Of a stretch of 64,000 nt of DNA, positions 5,589 through 43,121 are shown in pieces. Position 1 is the stretch's first letter; the number at the start of each line of letters is the position of its first letter. The position numbers and the translations under genes were made by a program. The notes under the pieces are model-generated. The model was not told the origin of the DNA. It saw only the letters and a list, made by a program, of their open reading frames with translations, and searched no databases. Origin of the DNA: Phycicoccus duodecadis. GTDB taxonomy: Bacteria; Actinomycetota; Actinomycetes; Actinomycetales; Dermatophilaceae. The stretch covers positions 1,550,001-1,614,000 of the forward strand of contig NZ_PJNE01000001.1 in assembly GCF_002846495.1 (NCBI RefSeq). Reading direction: 5' to 3'.

Positions 5589-5645
5589 CCGCGACAGGCT
5601 ACCGGCGGCAGGGCGCAACCCCCGATTCGCCCGCTCGGAGGGCTG

Positions 5646-5745
5646 AGCTTCCGCGCCGTCACCGTGACGACGCGTTTGCGCGCCGCGGACGCGGATGCAT
5701 CCCCGCCCGGGCGGAGCTTCCGCGCCGTCACAGGGATGACGCGGT
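5646..5745. repeat. palindromic repeat family, copy 1 (upstream of the boxed gene)
   Basis: Two hairpin units with CCGCGCCGTCA surround a core containing GCCGCGGACGCGGATGCATCC. The inner inverted repeat is TGACGACGCG (5665-5674) against CGCGCCGTCA (5721-5730), one mismatch. The right unit CGCGCCGTCACAGGGATGAC is also present in both hairpins of the copy at 32012-32112. It lies between the divergent cysS and 5829 genes, so it is not simply a terminator. Confidence 0.8.
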
Positions 5746-5828
5746 TCGTCACGAGCGCTCAGCCGCGCCGGCCTCGACCCTGTGGATGACGCCACGGCCG
5801 GCTCTTCGAGAACGGGCACGATCGGTGG

Positions 5829-6773
5829 ATGTCCGATCGGCTCCTGACCCTGGCGGCGGTGCAGCAGGGCGTCGTCTCCATCCGCGACGCCACCCGGCTG
5901 GAGGTCGACCACAACGCCGTGGCCGACCTCGTCACCGCGGGCACCCTGGTCCGCGTCCGACGCGGCGCCTACGTGCTGGGCTCGTCCTGGGAGCCGGCCA
6001 CTCCCGAGCGCCGGCTGGCCTTGCGCACCCGCGCGGTGCTGCACGCCCGCGGCAGCTTGGTCGAGGCCGCCACCCACCAGAGCGCCCTGGCCCTGCACGG
6101 CCTGCCGCTCCACAACGCGCCCCTCGACGTGATCGACGTCTGCGGGAACGTCACCCGCGTGCGCCGGGCCGCCGACCTGCGCATCCATCCGACCGACGCC
6201 AGGCTCGCCGTGCAGGTGGTCGAGGGCGCTCGCACGGTCCCGGTCGACGTCGCCCTGGCCCAGGTCGCCCTGCGCGAGGGGCGCGGCGCCGCGGTGGTCG
6301 CCGCCGACGCCGCCCTCCACGCGGGCGCGGCCGACCTCGACCGGGCCGTCGATCTCGTCGGGCAGCTCGGGGAGTCACCCCGGCGGGCGGCCCGGGCCCA
6401 GCGGTGGCTGCGCCTCGCCGACCCGCTCTGCGAGTCGGTCGGCGAGACCCGGACCCGCCTGCTGCTCGGCGACCTCGGGTACGAGGCCACCAGCCAGGTG
6501 CGCATCCGGGACGAGGCCGGCTCCGTCGTCGCCCGCGTCGACCTGCTGGTGGGGGCGTGGGTGGTCGTCGAGTTCGACGGGCTCGTGAAGTACGAGGGCG
6601 CGCAGGGCCGGGCCGCGTTGGCCGCCGAGAAGGCGCGCGAGGACCGGCTGCGCGCCCTCGGGTACGAGGTGGTGCGCCTCACGTGGGCCGACCTGGCGAG
6701 ACCGCAGCGGGTCGCGGCGCTCGTCCGCGGCGCCGTCGAGCGGGCGGGCGCGCGTCACGTCCGGGCCGGCTGA
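5829..6773 (+). CDS. AbiEi-like HTH plus PD-(D/E)XK-like (DUF559/Vsr-type) protein
   Basis: A 314-residue protein of a large actinobacterial family usually annotated as AbiEi-family antitoxin domain proteins. The N-terminal winged-helix part includes a turn ending VRRGAYVLG; the middle is helical. The C-terminal part resembles the Vsr/DUF559 nuclease fold: an acidic residue in ARVDLLV, then [10 protein letters not shown], giving the D-x(n)-E-x-D-x-x-x-K pattern, and a terminal [11 protein letters not shown] strand. No AbiEii-like toxin gene is adjacent. Palindromic repeats lie on both sides, the downstream one beginning at the stop codon. It is a distant paralogue of the gene at 39862-40902. 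The ATG has no clear ribosome site. Confidence 0.72.
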
Positions 6774-6875
6774 CGTTCCGCGTCATCCCTGTGACGGCGC
6801 GGTTCCACGCCGCGGACGCGGATGCATCCGCGCCCTCCCGGAGGTTCCGCGCCGTCACAGCGGCGGCGCGGAAGC
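6774..6875. repeat. palindromic repeat family, copy 2 (downstream of the boxed gene)
   Basis: Fills the whole gap between two convergent stop codons. A perfect 14-bp inverted repeat, CTGTGACGGCGCGG (6789-6802) and CCGCGCCGTCACAG (6847-6860), encloses a core with GGTTCCACGCCGCGGACGC followed by the perfect palindrome GCGGATGCATCCGC. It could act as a bidirectional terminator here, but related copies sit in divergent and tandem contexts. Confidence 0.82.
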
Positions 6876-7541
6876 TCAGTGGCCGCGGTCGAGCCACTCC
6901 TGCAGGTGCGGGGCCTCGGCGCCGATCGTGGTCGGGTCGCCGTGCCCGGTGAGCACCACGGTGTCGGCCGGCAGCTCGAGCAGCCGGGTGCGGATGGACT
7001 CGACGATGGTCGGGAAGTCGCTGTACGAGCGCCCGGTGGCGCCCGGGCCGCCCTGGAACAGGGTGTCGCCGCTGAACAGCACCCCGAGTGCCGGCACCGA
7101 GAGGCAGCAGGCCCCGGGTGCATGCCCCGGGGTGTGCAGCACGGTGGCCTCGACGTCGCCGACGGTGAAGAACTGCCCGTCGGCGAGCTCGGCGCCCGGT
7201 GCGGCGTCCTGGCTCATGTCCCACAGCACCCGGTCGTCGGGGTGCAGGTACGCGGTGGCGCCGGTGGCCGCGACCACCTCGGACACGGCGTTCACGTGGT
7301 CGTTGTGGCCGTGCGTGCAGACCAGCGCCACGACCTCGCGGCCGGCCACGGCGTCGACGATGGCGCCGGCGTCGTGCGCGGCGTCGACGACGAGCACCTG
7401 GCGGTCGTCACCGAGCAGCCAGACGTTGTTGTCGACCTCCCACGACCCGCCGTCGAGCTCGAACACCCCGGAGGTCACGAGCCGCTCGACCCGCACCCCT
7501 GCCGGCGACGTCGGCACCGGCATCCCGATGTCGGTGCTCAC
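6876..7541 (-). CDS. metallo-beta-lactamase fold hydrolase paired with MscR
   Basis: A 221-residue metallo-hydrolase with the zinc motif THGHNDH, further ligand regions HTPGHAPGA and FSGDTLF, and a terminal [13 protein letters not shown]. It starts at GTG 7541, overlapping the stop of the upstream mscR gene by 4 nt (GTGA), so the two are translationally coupled. In mycobacteria a homologous hydrolase follows mscR, and a glyoxalase II-like role has been suggested: hydrolysis of the mycothiol thioester formed by MscR. That role is inference from context. Its 3' end abuts repeat copy 2. Confidence 0.87.
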
Positions 7542-38907: not shown

Positions 38908-39684
38908 ATGGCCAAGCGCATCGACGTCAAGGACCTCGACATCTACTACGGCGACTTCAAGGCCGTCGAGGGGGTGACGATGACGGTGGAGCCCCGCTCC
39001 GTCACCTCGTTCATCGGCCCCTCCGGCTGCGGCAAGTCGACCGTGCTCCGCACCCTGAACCGGATGCACGAGGTCATCCCCGGTGGCCGCGTCGACGGCT
39101 CGGTCATGCTCGACGACGAGGACCTCTACGCCTCCACGGTCGACCCGGTGGCGGTGCGTCGCACGGTCGGGATGGTCTTCCAGCGGCCGAACCCGTTCCC
39201 GACCATGTCCATCCGCGACAACGTCGCCGCCGGACTGAGGCTCAACGGGATGAAGAACAAGAAGAAGCTCGACGAGGTCGTCGAGCGCTCCCTCCAGGGC
39301 GCCAACCTCTGGAACGAGGTCAAGGACCGGCTCGACAAGCCGGGCGCGGGCCTCTCGGGCGGCCAGCAGCAGCGGCTGTGCATCGCGCGCGCCATCGCCG
39401 TGAACCCGCAGGTGCTGCTGATGGACGAGCCGTGCTCGGCCCTCGACCCCATCTCGACCCTGGCCATCGAGGACCTCATCAACGACCTGAAGTCCGACTT
39501 CACCATCGTCATCGTCACGCACAACATGCAGCAGGCGGCCCGCGTCTCGGACCAGACCGCGTTCTTCAACCTCAAGGCCACCGGTGAGCCCGGGCGGCTG
39601 GTCGAGGTCGGCGACACCCAGCGCATCTTCTCCAACCCCACCGAGAAGGCCACCGAGGACTACATCAGCGGCCGCTTCGGCTGA
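38908..39684 (+). CDS. pstB: phosphate ABC transporter ATPase PstB
   Basis: ATP-binding subunit of the Pst system, 258 residues. Walker [10 protein letters not shown], signature [14 protein letters not shown], Walker [14 protein letters not shown] and switch [11 protein letters not shown] are complete. [18 protein letters not shown] is the PstB-type Q-loop. Last gene of the operon; a large inverted repeat lies 17 nt after the stop. Confidence 0.96.
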
Positions 39685-39701
39685 CCGCCCCCCCACCCCG
39701 A

Positions 39702-39768
39702 CTTCGTGCGACTTACACACGTTCTCGCCGGCGAGGGGCTGCGAGAACCGTGTGTAAGTCGCACGAAG
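39702..39768. repeat. 67-bp palindromic element, upstream member of the second boxed pair
   Basis: Outer arms CTTCGTGCGACTTACACACG and its complement (ending 39768), with an inner TTCTCGC/GCGAGAA stem and one bulged base. It is exactly as long as the element at 40859-40925, and both share TCGTGCGAC at the ends and CGGTTCT (minus strand) inside. It could also serve as the pst operon terminator. Confidence 0.82.
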
Positions 39769-39861
39769 CCGTCATCCACAGGGGCGGCCGGAGCGGGGCG
39801 TCGTCCACAGGCGCGCCATGGGCCGTTGCCGCCCCTCCGCTCGTGTGGCGAGCATCGGGCG

Positions 39862-40902
39862 ATGCACCTCGACCTCGGCGCCCTTCCCGCCGTCTTCCTC
39901 GCCCGAGAGGCGGCGGACCTCCGGCTCGACGCCCGGCGGCTGTCCACCGGGGTGGGCAACGGGCAGCTGCTCCGCCTCGCTCGCGGCCTCTACGCCGATC
40001 CCGCCCGCTGGCCGACGGATGCCGTCTCCCGGCACACGTTGATGGCGGCGGCCGCCCAGCGCGCGGTCACGGGCTGCGCCGTGAGCCACGTTAGCGCGGC
40101 GTTGTCCCTCGCGCTGCCGAACCCGCGTGGCCCTTTCCCCAGGCCCGCCGTCACGGTCGACGACCATCTCCGCTCGCGGTCACCCGGCGCGTGGGCCACC
40201 CTCCTGCGCGGCGAGCTCCCCGCCGAGCACACGGAGACCGTCGACGGGCTACGACGCACGGTGCCCGCCCGCACGGTCGTCGACTGCGCGCGGCACCTCT
40301 CGGTCGGTGACGCTCTCGCCATCGCGGATGCCGCGGTGCGCGCCGGCGTGACCTCGCCGGCGGCCCTCCGGTCGATGCGCGACACCCAGCGCCACTGGCC
40401 CGGGGTCACCCGCGCCGACCAGGTGCTCCGGCTGCTCGACCCCCGGCGTGAGGGCTGGCTGGAGTCGTGGTCCGCCGCCGCCTTCGAGCGCCTCGAGCTG
40501 CCCCGGTGGATGCCCCAGGTCGTCGTCCGCGACGAGCACGACCGCTTCCTCGGTCGGGTCGACGGCTTCTGGCCCGAGCTCGGCGTCGTGGCCGAGGCCG
40601 ACGGCCGCGGCAAGTATCTGGGCGATGTCGACCCTGCCCTGGACCGCAGCCCGGAGGCCATGGCCGGCCGCGTCCTCTCCGCCGGCGAGCGCGAGGTGGG
40701 GCTGCGCTCGTGCGGGGTCGGGGTGGTGCGGTGGACCACGACGGAGATCACGCGCCAGCAGCTGCTGGTCACCGCGCGGTGGCGCTCCGAGGTGCAGCGC
40801 ACCGACCCGCGCCGCATCCGCGCCACCTTCACCTGCTCCTGCTGCGGGGCGCCCGTGACCTCGTGCGACATCGGTACGGATTTCTGGGCGTCCGCCGCGT
40901 AG
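39862..40902 (+). CDS. AbiEi-like HTH plus PD-(D/E)XK-like protein, second copy
   Basis: A 346-residue distant paralogue of the protein at 5829-6773. The winged-helix N-terminus includes LLRLARGLYADP; the helical middle has VPARTVVDCARHLSVGDALAIADAAVR. The nuclease-like part LGRVDGFWPELGVVAEADGRGKYLG keeps the D...E-x-D-G-x-x-K pattern. The C-terminus CSCCGAPVTSCDIGTDFW is partly encoded by the left arm of the palindrome at 40859-40925, so the repeat has probably replaced the original 3' end. No toxin partner is adjacent. CTGTGGAT-like words lie upstream of both paralogues. Confidence 0.72.
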   Translation: MHLDLGALPAVFLAREAADLRLDARRLSTGVGNGQLLRLARGLYADPARWPTDAVSRHTLMAAAAQRAVTGCAVSHVSAALSLALPNPRGPFPRPAVTVDDHLRSRSPGAWATLLRGELPAEHTETVDGLRRTVPARTVVDCARHLSVGDALAIADAAVRAGVTSPAALRSMRDTQRHWPGVTRADQVLRLLDPRREGWLESWSAAAFERLELPRWMPQVVVRDEHDRFLGRVDGFWPELGVVAEADGRGKYLGDVDPALDRSPEAMAGRVLSAGEREVGLRSCGVGVVRWTTTEITRQQLLVTARWRSEVQRTDPRRIRATFTCSCCGAPVTSCDIGTDFWASAA

Positions 40903-40925
40903 AACCGCACCGATGTCGCACGAGG
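40859..40925. repeat. 67-bp palindromic element, downstream member of the second boxed pair
   Basis: Arms CCTCGTGCGACATCGGT and its complement enclose a core that on the minus strand reads GGTTCTACGCGGCGGACGC, matching GGTTCCACGCCGCGGACGC of copy 2. The left arm lies inside the 39862 gene, including its last codons. It links the two repeat groups. Confidence 0.82.
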
Positions 40926-40969
40926 TCGTGGATGGGGCCGGGCGGATGAGGGCGGAGCGGGCGGCCCGC

Positions 40970-41965
40970 TCAGGTGAGGGGCGAGAGCAGCCCGTAGACG
41001 AGCGCCGCGGCCAGCCCGGCCCCGGGGAAGGTGAGCACCCAGGCCAGCACGATCGAGCGCGCCACGCCCCACCGCACGGCCTTGGCCGACCGCGTCGCGC
41101 CCACCCCGGTGATGGCTGCGGTGATGGCGTGCGTCGTCGAGATGGGCGCGCCGGTGGCCGTCGCCACGTACAGCACCGAGGCCGCCGTGGCCTCGGCCGC
41201 GAAGCCCTGCGGCGGGTCGAGGTGGATGATGCCGCGCCCGAGCGTGCGCATGATCCGCCATCCCCCGGCCGCCGAGCCCAGGCTGAGCACCACCGCCGAC
41301 AGCGCGATCACCCACAGCGGCACCGAGGGGTCGTCCGCCGGCTGGTGCCCGGCCGCCACCAGGGCGAGCGCCACCACGCCGGCCGTCTTGGTCGCGTCCT
41401 GCATCCCGTGCCCGAACGCCATCGCCGCGGCCGAGACCGTCTGGGCGTACCGGAAGCCCCGCGCCGTGGGCCCCGGCGAGGCCCGCCGGAAGATCCACAG
41501 GATGGCGGTCATCACCAGGAAGCCGCCCACGACGCCCACCACCGGCGACACCACCATCGGGATCGCGACCTTGTCGCGCACGCTCCCCCACTGCACGCTC
41601 GCCCCGGCCGCCAGCGCCGCGCCCCCGAGCCCGCCCACCAGGGCGTGCGTCGACGACGAGGGCAGCCCCCGCCACCAGGTCAGCAGGTTCCACCCGGTGG
41701 CCCCCACGAGGGCCCCGACGCACAGCACGATCCCGGTGGCCCCGGTGGGCACCACCACGATGTCGGAGCCGATGGTCTCGGCGACGCGCATCCCGGCGAA
41801 CGCGCCGAGGAGGTTCATCACGGCCCCGAGACCCAGCGCGATGCGCGGGGTGAGGGCCCGCGTCGTCACCGAGGTCGCGATGGCGTTCGCCGCGTCGTGG
41901 AAGCCGTTGGTGTAGGTGAAGCCCATCGCGAGGACGACGACGAGCGCGACGGGCCACCAGTCCAC
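40970..41965 (-). CDS. pit: low-affinity inorganic phosphate transporter, Pit family
   Basis: A 331-residue membrane carrier with the two PiT signatures: GFTYTNGFHDAANAIAT at the start and GAPISTTHAITAAITGVGA near the end, about ten helices in all. It moves metal-phosphate complexes driven by the proton gradient. GTG 41965 lies 5 nt after the stop of the DUF47 gene, so they are co-transcribed. Confidence 0.94.
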   Translation of the reverse strand: MDWWPVALVVVLAMGFTYTNGFHDAANAIATSVTTRALTPRIALGLGAVMNLLGAFAGMRVAETIGSDIVVVPTGATGIVLCVGALVGATGWNLLTWWRGLPSSSTHALVGGLGGAALAAGASVQWGSVRDKVAIPMVVSPVVGVVGGFLVMTAILWIFRRASPGPTARGFRYAQTVSAAAMAFGHGMQDATKTAGVVALALVAAGHQPADDPSVPLWVIALSAVVLSLGSAAGGWRIMRTLGRGIIHLDPPQGFAAEATAASVLYVATATGAPISTTHAITAAITGVGATRSAKAVRWGVARSIVLAWVLTFPGAGLAAALVYGLLSPLT

Positions 41966-41970
41966 GACGG

Positions 41971-42594
41971 TCAGGACTCCCGGACCGCGATCGCCTCGAG
42001 CGTGAGCGCCACGTGCTCGAAGCCGTTGGCGGTGGCCTCGAGCGCGTCGATGATGTCCTTGTGCTTCATCACCGTCAGGGGGTCGGCCTTCTTGACGTTG
42101 AAGAGGTCGGCCAGCATCCGGCGGTACTGCTTGTTGGCGCGGTTCTCGAGCCGGTTCACCTCGACCCAGTAGTCGCCGAGCTCCTTCAGCGAGCGCATCC
42201 TGGGCATCGCGTCGACCGTCAGCTCGGCCATCCGCGAGATGATCTCGACCTGCTTGGCGACCCGCGGCAGCACCTCGTCGACCTGGTAGAGCACGATCAG
42301 GTCGACCGCGGCCTCCATCAGGTCGACGCACTGCTCGAGCGCGATCGCCAGCGTGTGCATGTCGGCCCGGTCGAACGGGGTGACGAACGAGCCGGCGACG
42401 CGGCGGATGATCTCGTGCGTGGCCTCGTCGGACGCGGCCTCGATGTCGTGCATCCGGCGCAGGATGTCCTCGCGCTCGTCGGCGTCGGCCCCCAGCAGCA
42501 GGGTCAGCTCGCGGGCACCCTCGACCAGCTGCTGGGCCGAGGTGGCGAACAGCGCGTAGAACGTCGGGTCCTGCGGGGTGAGGCGAAAGCCCAC
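41971..42594 (-). CDS. DUF47/PhoU-like accessory protein of Pit
   Basis: A 207-residue helical protein related to PhoU (DUF47, YkaA type). Segments include FTPFDRADMHTLAIAL-like TPFDRADMHTLAIALEQCVD and WVEVNRLENRANKQYRRMLADLF. Such proteins almost always precede pit genes and probably regulate or assemble the carrier. Starts with GTG. Confidence 0.92.
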   Translation of the reverse strand: MGFRLTPQDPTFYALFATSAQQLVEGARELTLLLGADADEREDILRRMHDIEAASDEATHEIIRRVAGSFVTPFDRADMHTLAIALEQCVDLMEAAVDLIVLYQVDEVLPRVAKQVEIISRMAELTVDAMPRMRSLKELGDYWVEVNRLENRANKQYRRMLADLFNVKKADPLTVMKHKDIIDALEATANGFEHVALTLEAIAVRES

Positions 42595-43032: not shown

Positions 43033-43121
43033 GTGGGTGCAGGACCGGGAGCACCTCTCGGTGCGAGGCCGCTCGTAGCGGCTGATGTTGGGACCCGGGG
43101 CTGCCGCGGTCCTGCACCCAC
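43033..43121. repeat. 89-bp inverted-repeat element
   Basis: Perfect 15-bp arms GTGGGTGCAGGACCG (43033-43047) and CGGTCCTGCACCCAC (43107-43121) enclose 59 bp with smaller stems. It lies between two minus-strand genes, downstream of the 43234 gene, so it can serve as a terminator. Its arms differ from the other palindromic elements. Confidence 0.65.

Follow-up and report, generated by a model that had tools for sequence, protein, structure and literature searches.

A gene for a predicted nuclease, lodged between pstB and the phosphate permease gene pit of Phycicoccus duodecadis, is boxed by two matching palindromes, and most scored members of its gene family are boxed in the same way. The locus lies in a 64,000-nucleotide stretch of contig NZ_PJNE01000001.1 (positions 1,550,001 to 1,614,000 of assembly GCF_002846495.1; hereafter the window, in whose coordinates positions are given unless a genome is named). 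From left to right, the putative unit would consist of a palindrome, a promoter box built on TCCACAG, an AbiEi-type DNA-binding half fused to a Vsr-like nuclease, and a second palindrome. We tentatively propose that it is a competence-induced selfish nuclease of the homing type, which would bias recombination at its own site during transformation.

The palindrome pair around the nuclease gene is confirmed (Table 1). The original prediction gave both palindromes as exactly 67 bp, with common ends and a common inner heptamer. Sequence and hairpin scan agree on the pair and on its shared TCGTGCGAC...GTCGCACGA ends, and the two take the top two hairpin scores in the window. The stated length is right for the left palindrome; in the right one, 67 bp is the core of a complementarity extending over 71 bp. 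As single-stranded DNA the left palindrome is predicted to fold at -34.6 kcal/mol (z -11.4) and the right one at -33.7 kcal/mol (z -8.6), with an equally good fold in 0 of 200 shuffles for each. Both have the outer TCGTGCGAC and, at equal distance in the 3' arm, the heptamer AGAACCG; the middle blocks are unlike (TTACACA and ATCGGTG). With 30-60 bases between its ends, TCGTGCGAC...GTCGCACGA occurs at three places in the 3.5-Mb single-contig genome, namely the two palindromes and one solo copy; the backwards pattern, used as a rarity control, gave one match. At the gathering threshold, the single Rfam match in the window is a tRNA.

The boxed gene is of the AbiEi/Vsr type (AbiEi/DUF559-like in the original prediction), and the only other one found in the window is the paralogue of Table 1. 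The AbiEi-type N-terminal half of the boxed protein, a winged helix with the domain that follows it, is supported by fold and profile, and the predicted fold of the remainder is that of a homing-type nuclease (a family missing from the fold lists is no evidence against that family). The Pfam score is weak for this protein alone (E 0.04), and a further in-frame start, also open, lies upstream at 39706. At this locus the neighbours are pstB and pit, with no AbiEii nucleotidyltransferase toxin gene beside the boxed gene; across 47 family members, Pfam gave six families at E<=0.01, none of them an HUH Y1 transposase. The gene is fast-evolving: between the window's genome (G000) and G003 or G008 it is ~43% identical, against 83-84% for pit. 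In seven family pairs read as intact, the ratio of nonsynonymous to synonymous substitution rates (dN/dS) is 0.18-0.43 (dS up to 0.98), and the proteins are therefore under constraint by purifying selection.

Boxing of this kind goes beyond chance, as first suggested from two cases. AbiEi_4 matches were found in 33 of 39 genomes searched, own included. A first set of 89 loci with a family match gave 46 core and 38 other loci that were scored, the rest being partial or short-flanked; of 80 named loci in a second set 70 were usable, 17 of them repeats of the first. The 102 core loci unite 49 from the first set, under a looser flank rule, with 53 new ones. Upstream and downstream flanks match with a score above 45 in 71 of these 102 genes, versus 1 of 479 ordinary genes, all drawn from 864 kb of the window's genome; by eye, the sole matching control adjoins a cassette with helix-turn-helix (HTH) and nucleotidyltransferase-like genes and a 40-bp direct repeat on either side (G000:C1:1121331). 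Hairpins scoring at least 16 on both sides mark 15.7% of the core genes and none of the 479. With 2070 cross-locus pairs as control, the flank match exceeded the 95% level in 39 of 46 full-length core loci of the first set and the 99% level in 29; in the second set, which takes in Kribbella, Propioniciclava, Curtobacterium and Ornithinimicrobium loci, 45 and 39 of 53 exceeded their own 95% and 99% levels. Boxing is weaker among low-scoring AbiEi relatives (19 and 12 of 38 above the 95% and 99% controls). The closest named relatives found for the family, in a comparison from which the window's own record may be missing, come from Phycicoccus, Knoellia, Janibacter and other Intrasporangiaceae/Dermatophilaceae, and one query for plasmid or phage carriage returned no match. 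Searches found eight members in the window's genome, five of which (L006, L008, L010, L011, L014) are by eye boxed on both sides, each with a different palindrome. An untargeted scan of the 864 kb returned a single hairpin pair above the random maximum, which boxes L010, and missed the five further members in the same stretch (L006, L007, L009, L011, L014).

Each locus has a private palindrome, which drifts between species and stays matched within the locus. Left and right palindromes match within 81 of the 102 loci; between loci, normalised similarity exceeds 0.4 in 5 of 3193 pairs with proteins less than 60% identical, compared with 18 of 47 pairs above. By eye, the palindromes at pstB-pit have for the most part retained their outer sequence (CGACTTATTGC or CGACTTCGTGC), and the inner block differs among G003/G005/G008, G002, G010 and G000. 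The proposal that the two boxed loci of the window carry related pairs thus survives weakly, and a single shared repeat group is rejected because palindromes differ between loci. In the median, the left palindrome ends 90 nt before the start codon and the right one begins 9 nt after the stop, which it overlaps in 22 of 81 loci.

Between the left palindrome and the gene lies a tandem TCCACAG box, missed by the earlier reading and new here. Of 102 core genes, 88 have TCCACAG on either strand in the ~200 bp before them, as do 6 of 480 controls; none of the 102 downstream flanks has it. Two sense copies are present in 32 loci, 28-30 bp apart in 30 of them. Sense copies occur in 52 loci, and in 37 of these the distance from the last copy to the estimated start is 57-59 or 65-69 bp. 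Among the 72 boxed loci that have the box, it sits inside the unit, with the left palindrome upstream of it, in 69. The tandem form is found in all 12 genus genomes that make up our comparison set, 15 times in the window's genome (for example at G000:C1 628972, 734944, 1430110 and 3223570; reversed-control matches 0). The genes that follow these 15 encode three AbiEi-Vsr proteins, RecA, two SSB, a ComEA-like protein (below the NCBI cut-off, E 4e-26), YraN (above it), a CpaE homologue (below it, E 5e-35), DUF4244, DUF4192, SprT-like, M23 peptidase and HTH proteins, and one without a Pfam match. In G008 it also stands before a yraN-like gene with a ComM-type gene behind it, and before ComF-like and CpaB-like genes, the last two below the cut-off. 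Box sites among the matches listed, 30 per search, gave 77 candidate frames, 55 of them scanned with Pfam; the 29 genus frames so scanned, with one site in two frames, include AbiEi_4 (5), SSB (4), RecA (2), ComEA-type (2), DUF222 (2) and DUF4192 (2). Order-wide, 29 of 39 genomes have a tandem-box match, with more than five copies in only six, and several of 26 scanned frames are unrelated. Because it precedes recA, ssb, comEA-like, yraN and tad-pilus-like genes, we infer that the tandem box is a putative competence promoter, the signal of a predicted regulon. PMC12849477 states in its Discussion that the Micrococcus luteus competence regulon is unknown at present, and the main texts of two papers on Micrococcus competence do not contain the letters CCACAG.

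Table 1. Features of the boxed locus, its neighbours and its paralogue (window coordinates).
Feature	Position	Strand	Remarks
Left palindrome	39702..39768	.	67 bp; arms CTTCGTGCGACTTACACACG(G)TTCTCGC
Tandem TCCACAG box	39775..39810	+	copies 39775-39781 and 39804-39810 (spacing 29 bp), the latter 58 bp upstream of the ATG; putative promoter element of competence type
Nuclease gene	39862..40902	+	346 aa; predicted are an AbiEi-type winged helix with its adjoining domain (residues 1-193), a nuclease domain of Vsr/I-Bth0305I type (residues 197-316) and E245 and D234 as catalytic residues
Right palindrome	40857..40927	.	71 bp; 67-bp core 40859-40925; holds stop codon TAG (40900-40902) of the boxed gene
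pstB, left neighbour	38908..39684	+	
pit phosphate permease, right neighbour	40970..42331	-	convergent
Paralogous AbiEi-Vsr gene	5829..6773	+	own flanking palindromic repeats ~5641-5751 and ~6758-6891; one TCCACAG box (minus strand, 5780)

At fixed sites, family members are present in some genomes and absent from others. The pstB-pit gene is present in six of the 12 genus genomes (G000, G002, G003, G005, G008, G010; in G002 and G005 the compared sequence ends before pstB), and the gene at the cysS-MBL place in four. In G006, whose pit is 92% identical, and in G011, the pstB-pit gap is 38 and 27 bp long and holds neither gene nor hairpin, so that gene and palindromes are lacking together in two of the three comparable empty sites; in G001, G004 and G007 pit adjoins a different gene, by eye pstS-like. 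Synteny sorts the family into eight groups, the smallest of two loci and the largest of nine, and leaves 12 loci outside any group. The original prediction that gene and repeats behave as a unit is thus partly supported, by the joint absence in G006 and G011 and by the boxing seen throughout the family; the gene-less hairpins described below weaken its strict form.

How might such a unit persist? We suggest that the locus is a member of a family of small selfish units carried by the chromosome. The box would place the nuclease in the predicted natural-competence regulon, so that it would be made while single-stranded DNA is taken up. Where incoming DNA pairs with the chromosome and one strand is without the unit, the unit would be looped out, and its two palindromes may fold into hairpins at the foot of the loop. 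The nuclease would then nick the partner strand at these hairpins, and repair would keep or copy the unit. In this way the unit could spread or be maintained as homing endonuclease genes are, and would withstand its deletion during transformation. A nuclease that would be made during competence, and palindromes that lie at the ends of a polymorphic insert, fit a local recombination bias toward that insert. More speculatively still, these loci may represent a new actinobacterial class of selfish element: a drive nuclease timed by competence, with a private pair of palindromes that would mark both its ends in the recombination heteroduplex. Natural transformation would then copy or retain it and not delete it; protein specificity would change in step with all four arms, perhaps giving rise to many mutually independent families per genome.

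Several observations weigh against the palindrome pair itself or against this proposal. The flank-to-flank alignment score of the pstB-pit pair, 32, only equals the 95% value of the cross-locus control, for which reason we do not count it as above control: it is not among the 39 loci that exceed this level and is one of the weaker pairs of the family, and its case is made instead by in-register identity, genome-wide rarity and the behaviour of the gene family. Nor are the 102 loci independent, because many are orthologues in the eight syntenic groups, some of which are joined by one flank only. Relative palindrome orientation varies (41 symmetric, 22 inverted, 18 direct), two of the eight own-genome members (L005, L009) have no palindromes by eye, and L007 (G000:C1:1160418-1163561), which is frameshifted, keeps its left palindrome intact and has a degenerate right end, and so is boxed on one side only; L049, the copy at this place in G006, has an open reading frame. 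Palindromes also occur without the gene. The third empty pstB-pit site, a 135-bp gap in G009, contains a hairpin of other sequence, and a solo palindrome without the gene stands at the kbl place in 3 of 12 genomes. At cysS-MBL, a hairpin, again of other sequence, lies no more than 100 bp from the MBL stop in five of the eight gene-less genomes (G005, G007, G008, G010, G011); none lies within 400 bp in G002 and G004, and that of G009 is only inside the neighbouring gene. Such gene-less palindromes being common at cysS-MBL, the strict unit claim is weakened, and the outcome first named as damaging to it, repeats without the gene as often as with it, is partly realised there. By eye, neither a target duplication nor an exact junction is seen at pstB-pit in G000 versus G006 and G011. 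Finally, the putative competence meaning of the box derives from gene content, and SprT-like, M23, DUF4192 and HTH genes also follow it; HNH-DUF222 genes have the same box, and the one such gene examined is not boxed by palindromes. TCCACAG also resembles a DnaA box, so the signal may instead serve replication control.

Two rivals have some standing, though we think each rather unlikely. The palindromes could be insulators or bidirectional terminators of a fast-evolving foreign gene, their copies kept alike by gene conversion and imperfect-palindrome correction without any part for the protein. The close approach of the right palindrome to the stop codon favours such a function, as does its position between convergent genes at pstB-pit, a setting shared by the solo copy L001. 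A terminator would however have no use for a matching upstream copy, and a scan of 39600-41050 (loops of 3-8, up to 20 pairs) found no T-run terminator; this, together with the rarity of boxed ordinary genes and the absence among them of hairpins on both sides, does not bear out the reading of the repeats as ordinary terminators. Alternatively, and to our mind with an equally small chance of being right, the palindromes are operators whose four arms are bound by the AbiEi-type half, which would repress the gene by looping while arms and protein co-evolve. AbiEi antitoxins bind inverted repeats at their own promoter, the N-terminal half of our protein matches that family, and the arms do turn over together with the protein. 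Against this, the left palindrome lies upstream of the box in nearly all loci that have both, and ordinary autoregulation needs no downstream copy. Less probable again is a competence-linked nuclease in the service of the host, which would restrict or process DNA as it enters and for which the palindromes are self-markers: it would account for the box held in common with recA, ssb and comEA-like genes and for purifying selection, but patchy presence, some eight diverging copies in this genome and the frameshifted L007 are better suited to a selfish life cycle. Transposition of the unit by means of its palindromic ends, in the manner of IS200/IS605 or REP/RAYT with a Vsr-type nuclease, is very improbable despite the matching palindromes around the gene and the solo left-palindrome copy elsewhere, given that members recur at the same syntenic places, the pstB-pit palindrome has only three genome copies, and neither an HUH transposase nor a target duplication was seen.

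Among the closest known systems, the proposed selfish unit resembles the homing endonuclease genes of the EDxHD/Vsr-like kind (I-Bth0305I) in nuclease fold, in presence or absence at fixed sites and in having a decayed copy. It differs in being intergenic, in its fused AbiEi-type half, in its two full palindromes and in the upstream box that it shares with recA, ssb and comEA-like genes. With AbiE type IV toxin-antitoxin systems it has the N-terminal half in common, a nuclease domain being fused to it, at this locus, in place of an adjoining AbiEii toxin gene. REP/RAYT (TnpA-REP) and IS200/IS605 likewise place a nuclease gene between matching palindromes and have a solo palindrome elsewhere; the nuclease here is of Vsr rather than HUH Y1 type, the palindromes are private, the sites are fixed, and solo palindromes are few rather than high-copy. 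A part of PMC4774983 argues that insertions are preferentially removed by transformation, the shorter allele without the element being favoured, and that elements evolve countermeasures. The conflict would be the same for the boxed unit; the elements described in that part break competence genes, whereas the boxed unit would act locally with a competence-timed nuclease. Among the matches listed in a search of open-access titles and abstracts, with most subscription papers outside, no paper treats palindrome-boxed AbiEi/DUF559/Vsr genes. If our proposal is correct, natural transformation would be exploited by a drive-like element, through which the idea of transformation as a battleground over element deletion could be tested directly. 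Whatever the mechanism, the tandem box can be tested as a candidate signal of a competence regulon in Actinomycetota, and the palindromes offer a simple annotation handle for a large gene class of the AbiEi/DUF559/MTES_1575 kind.

Some solo palindromes have another source. A dispersed family of 42-44 bp, CGTGTGTGAAC-N-GTTCACACACG, occurs in 7 of the 12 genus genomes (22 copies in G008, 12 in G009, 7 in G004, 6 in G011, 5 in G010, 2 in G006 and 3 in G000, at 882866, 2215136 and 2257342; reversed control 0). The hairpin at cysS-MBL in G008 matches the family exactly and the one in G010 is similar to it by eye, so that the dispersed family explains some of the solo palindromes. An AbiEi-Vsr gene as its parent was rejected: none stands in the 24 loci examined, some of which cover the same copy, and the two families are unrelated. 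The solo palindrome 153 kb away (L001 1498-1567; G000:C1:1436458-1436527) is a copy of the left one with almost identical arms. A relic of a lost gene is not supported there, with no family member beside kbl in any of the 12 genomes (flanks of ~1.5 kb; 307 bp in G002).

Three further observations concern the surroundings. The pit gene of G010 appears frameshift-broken in the record (G010:C1:2853969-2855040; L116, L123). A long hairpin at window positions 43033-43121, which has no Rfam match at the gathering threshold, recurs by eye in several genus genomes and is possibly a structured RNA. In L045 (G026:C1:1873657-1879291), a more distant AbiEi-type gene of another family lies between two nearly identical 72-bp palindromes.
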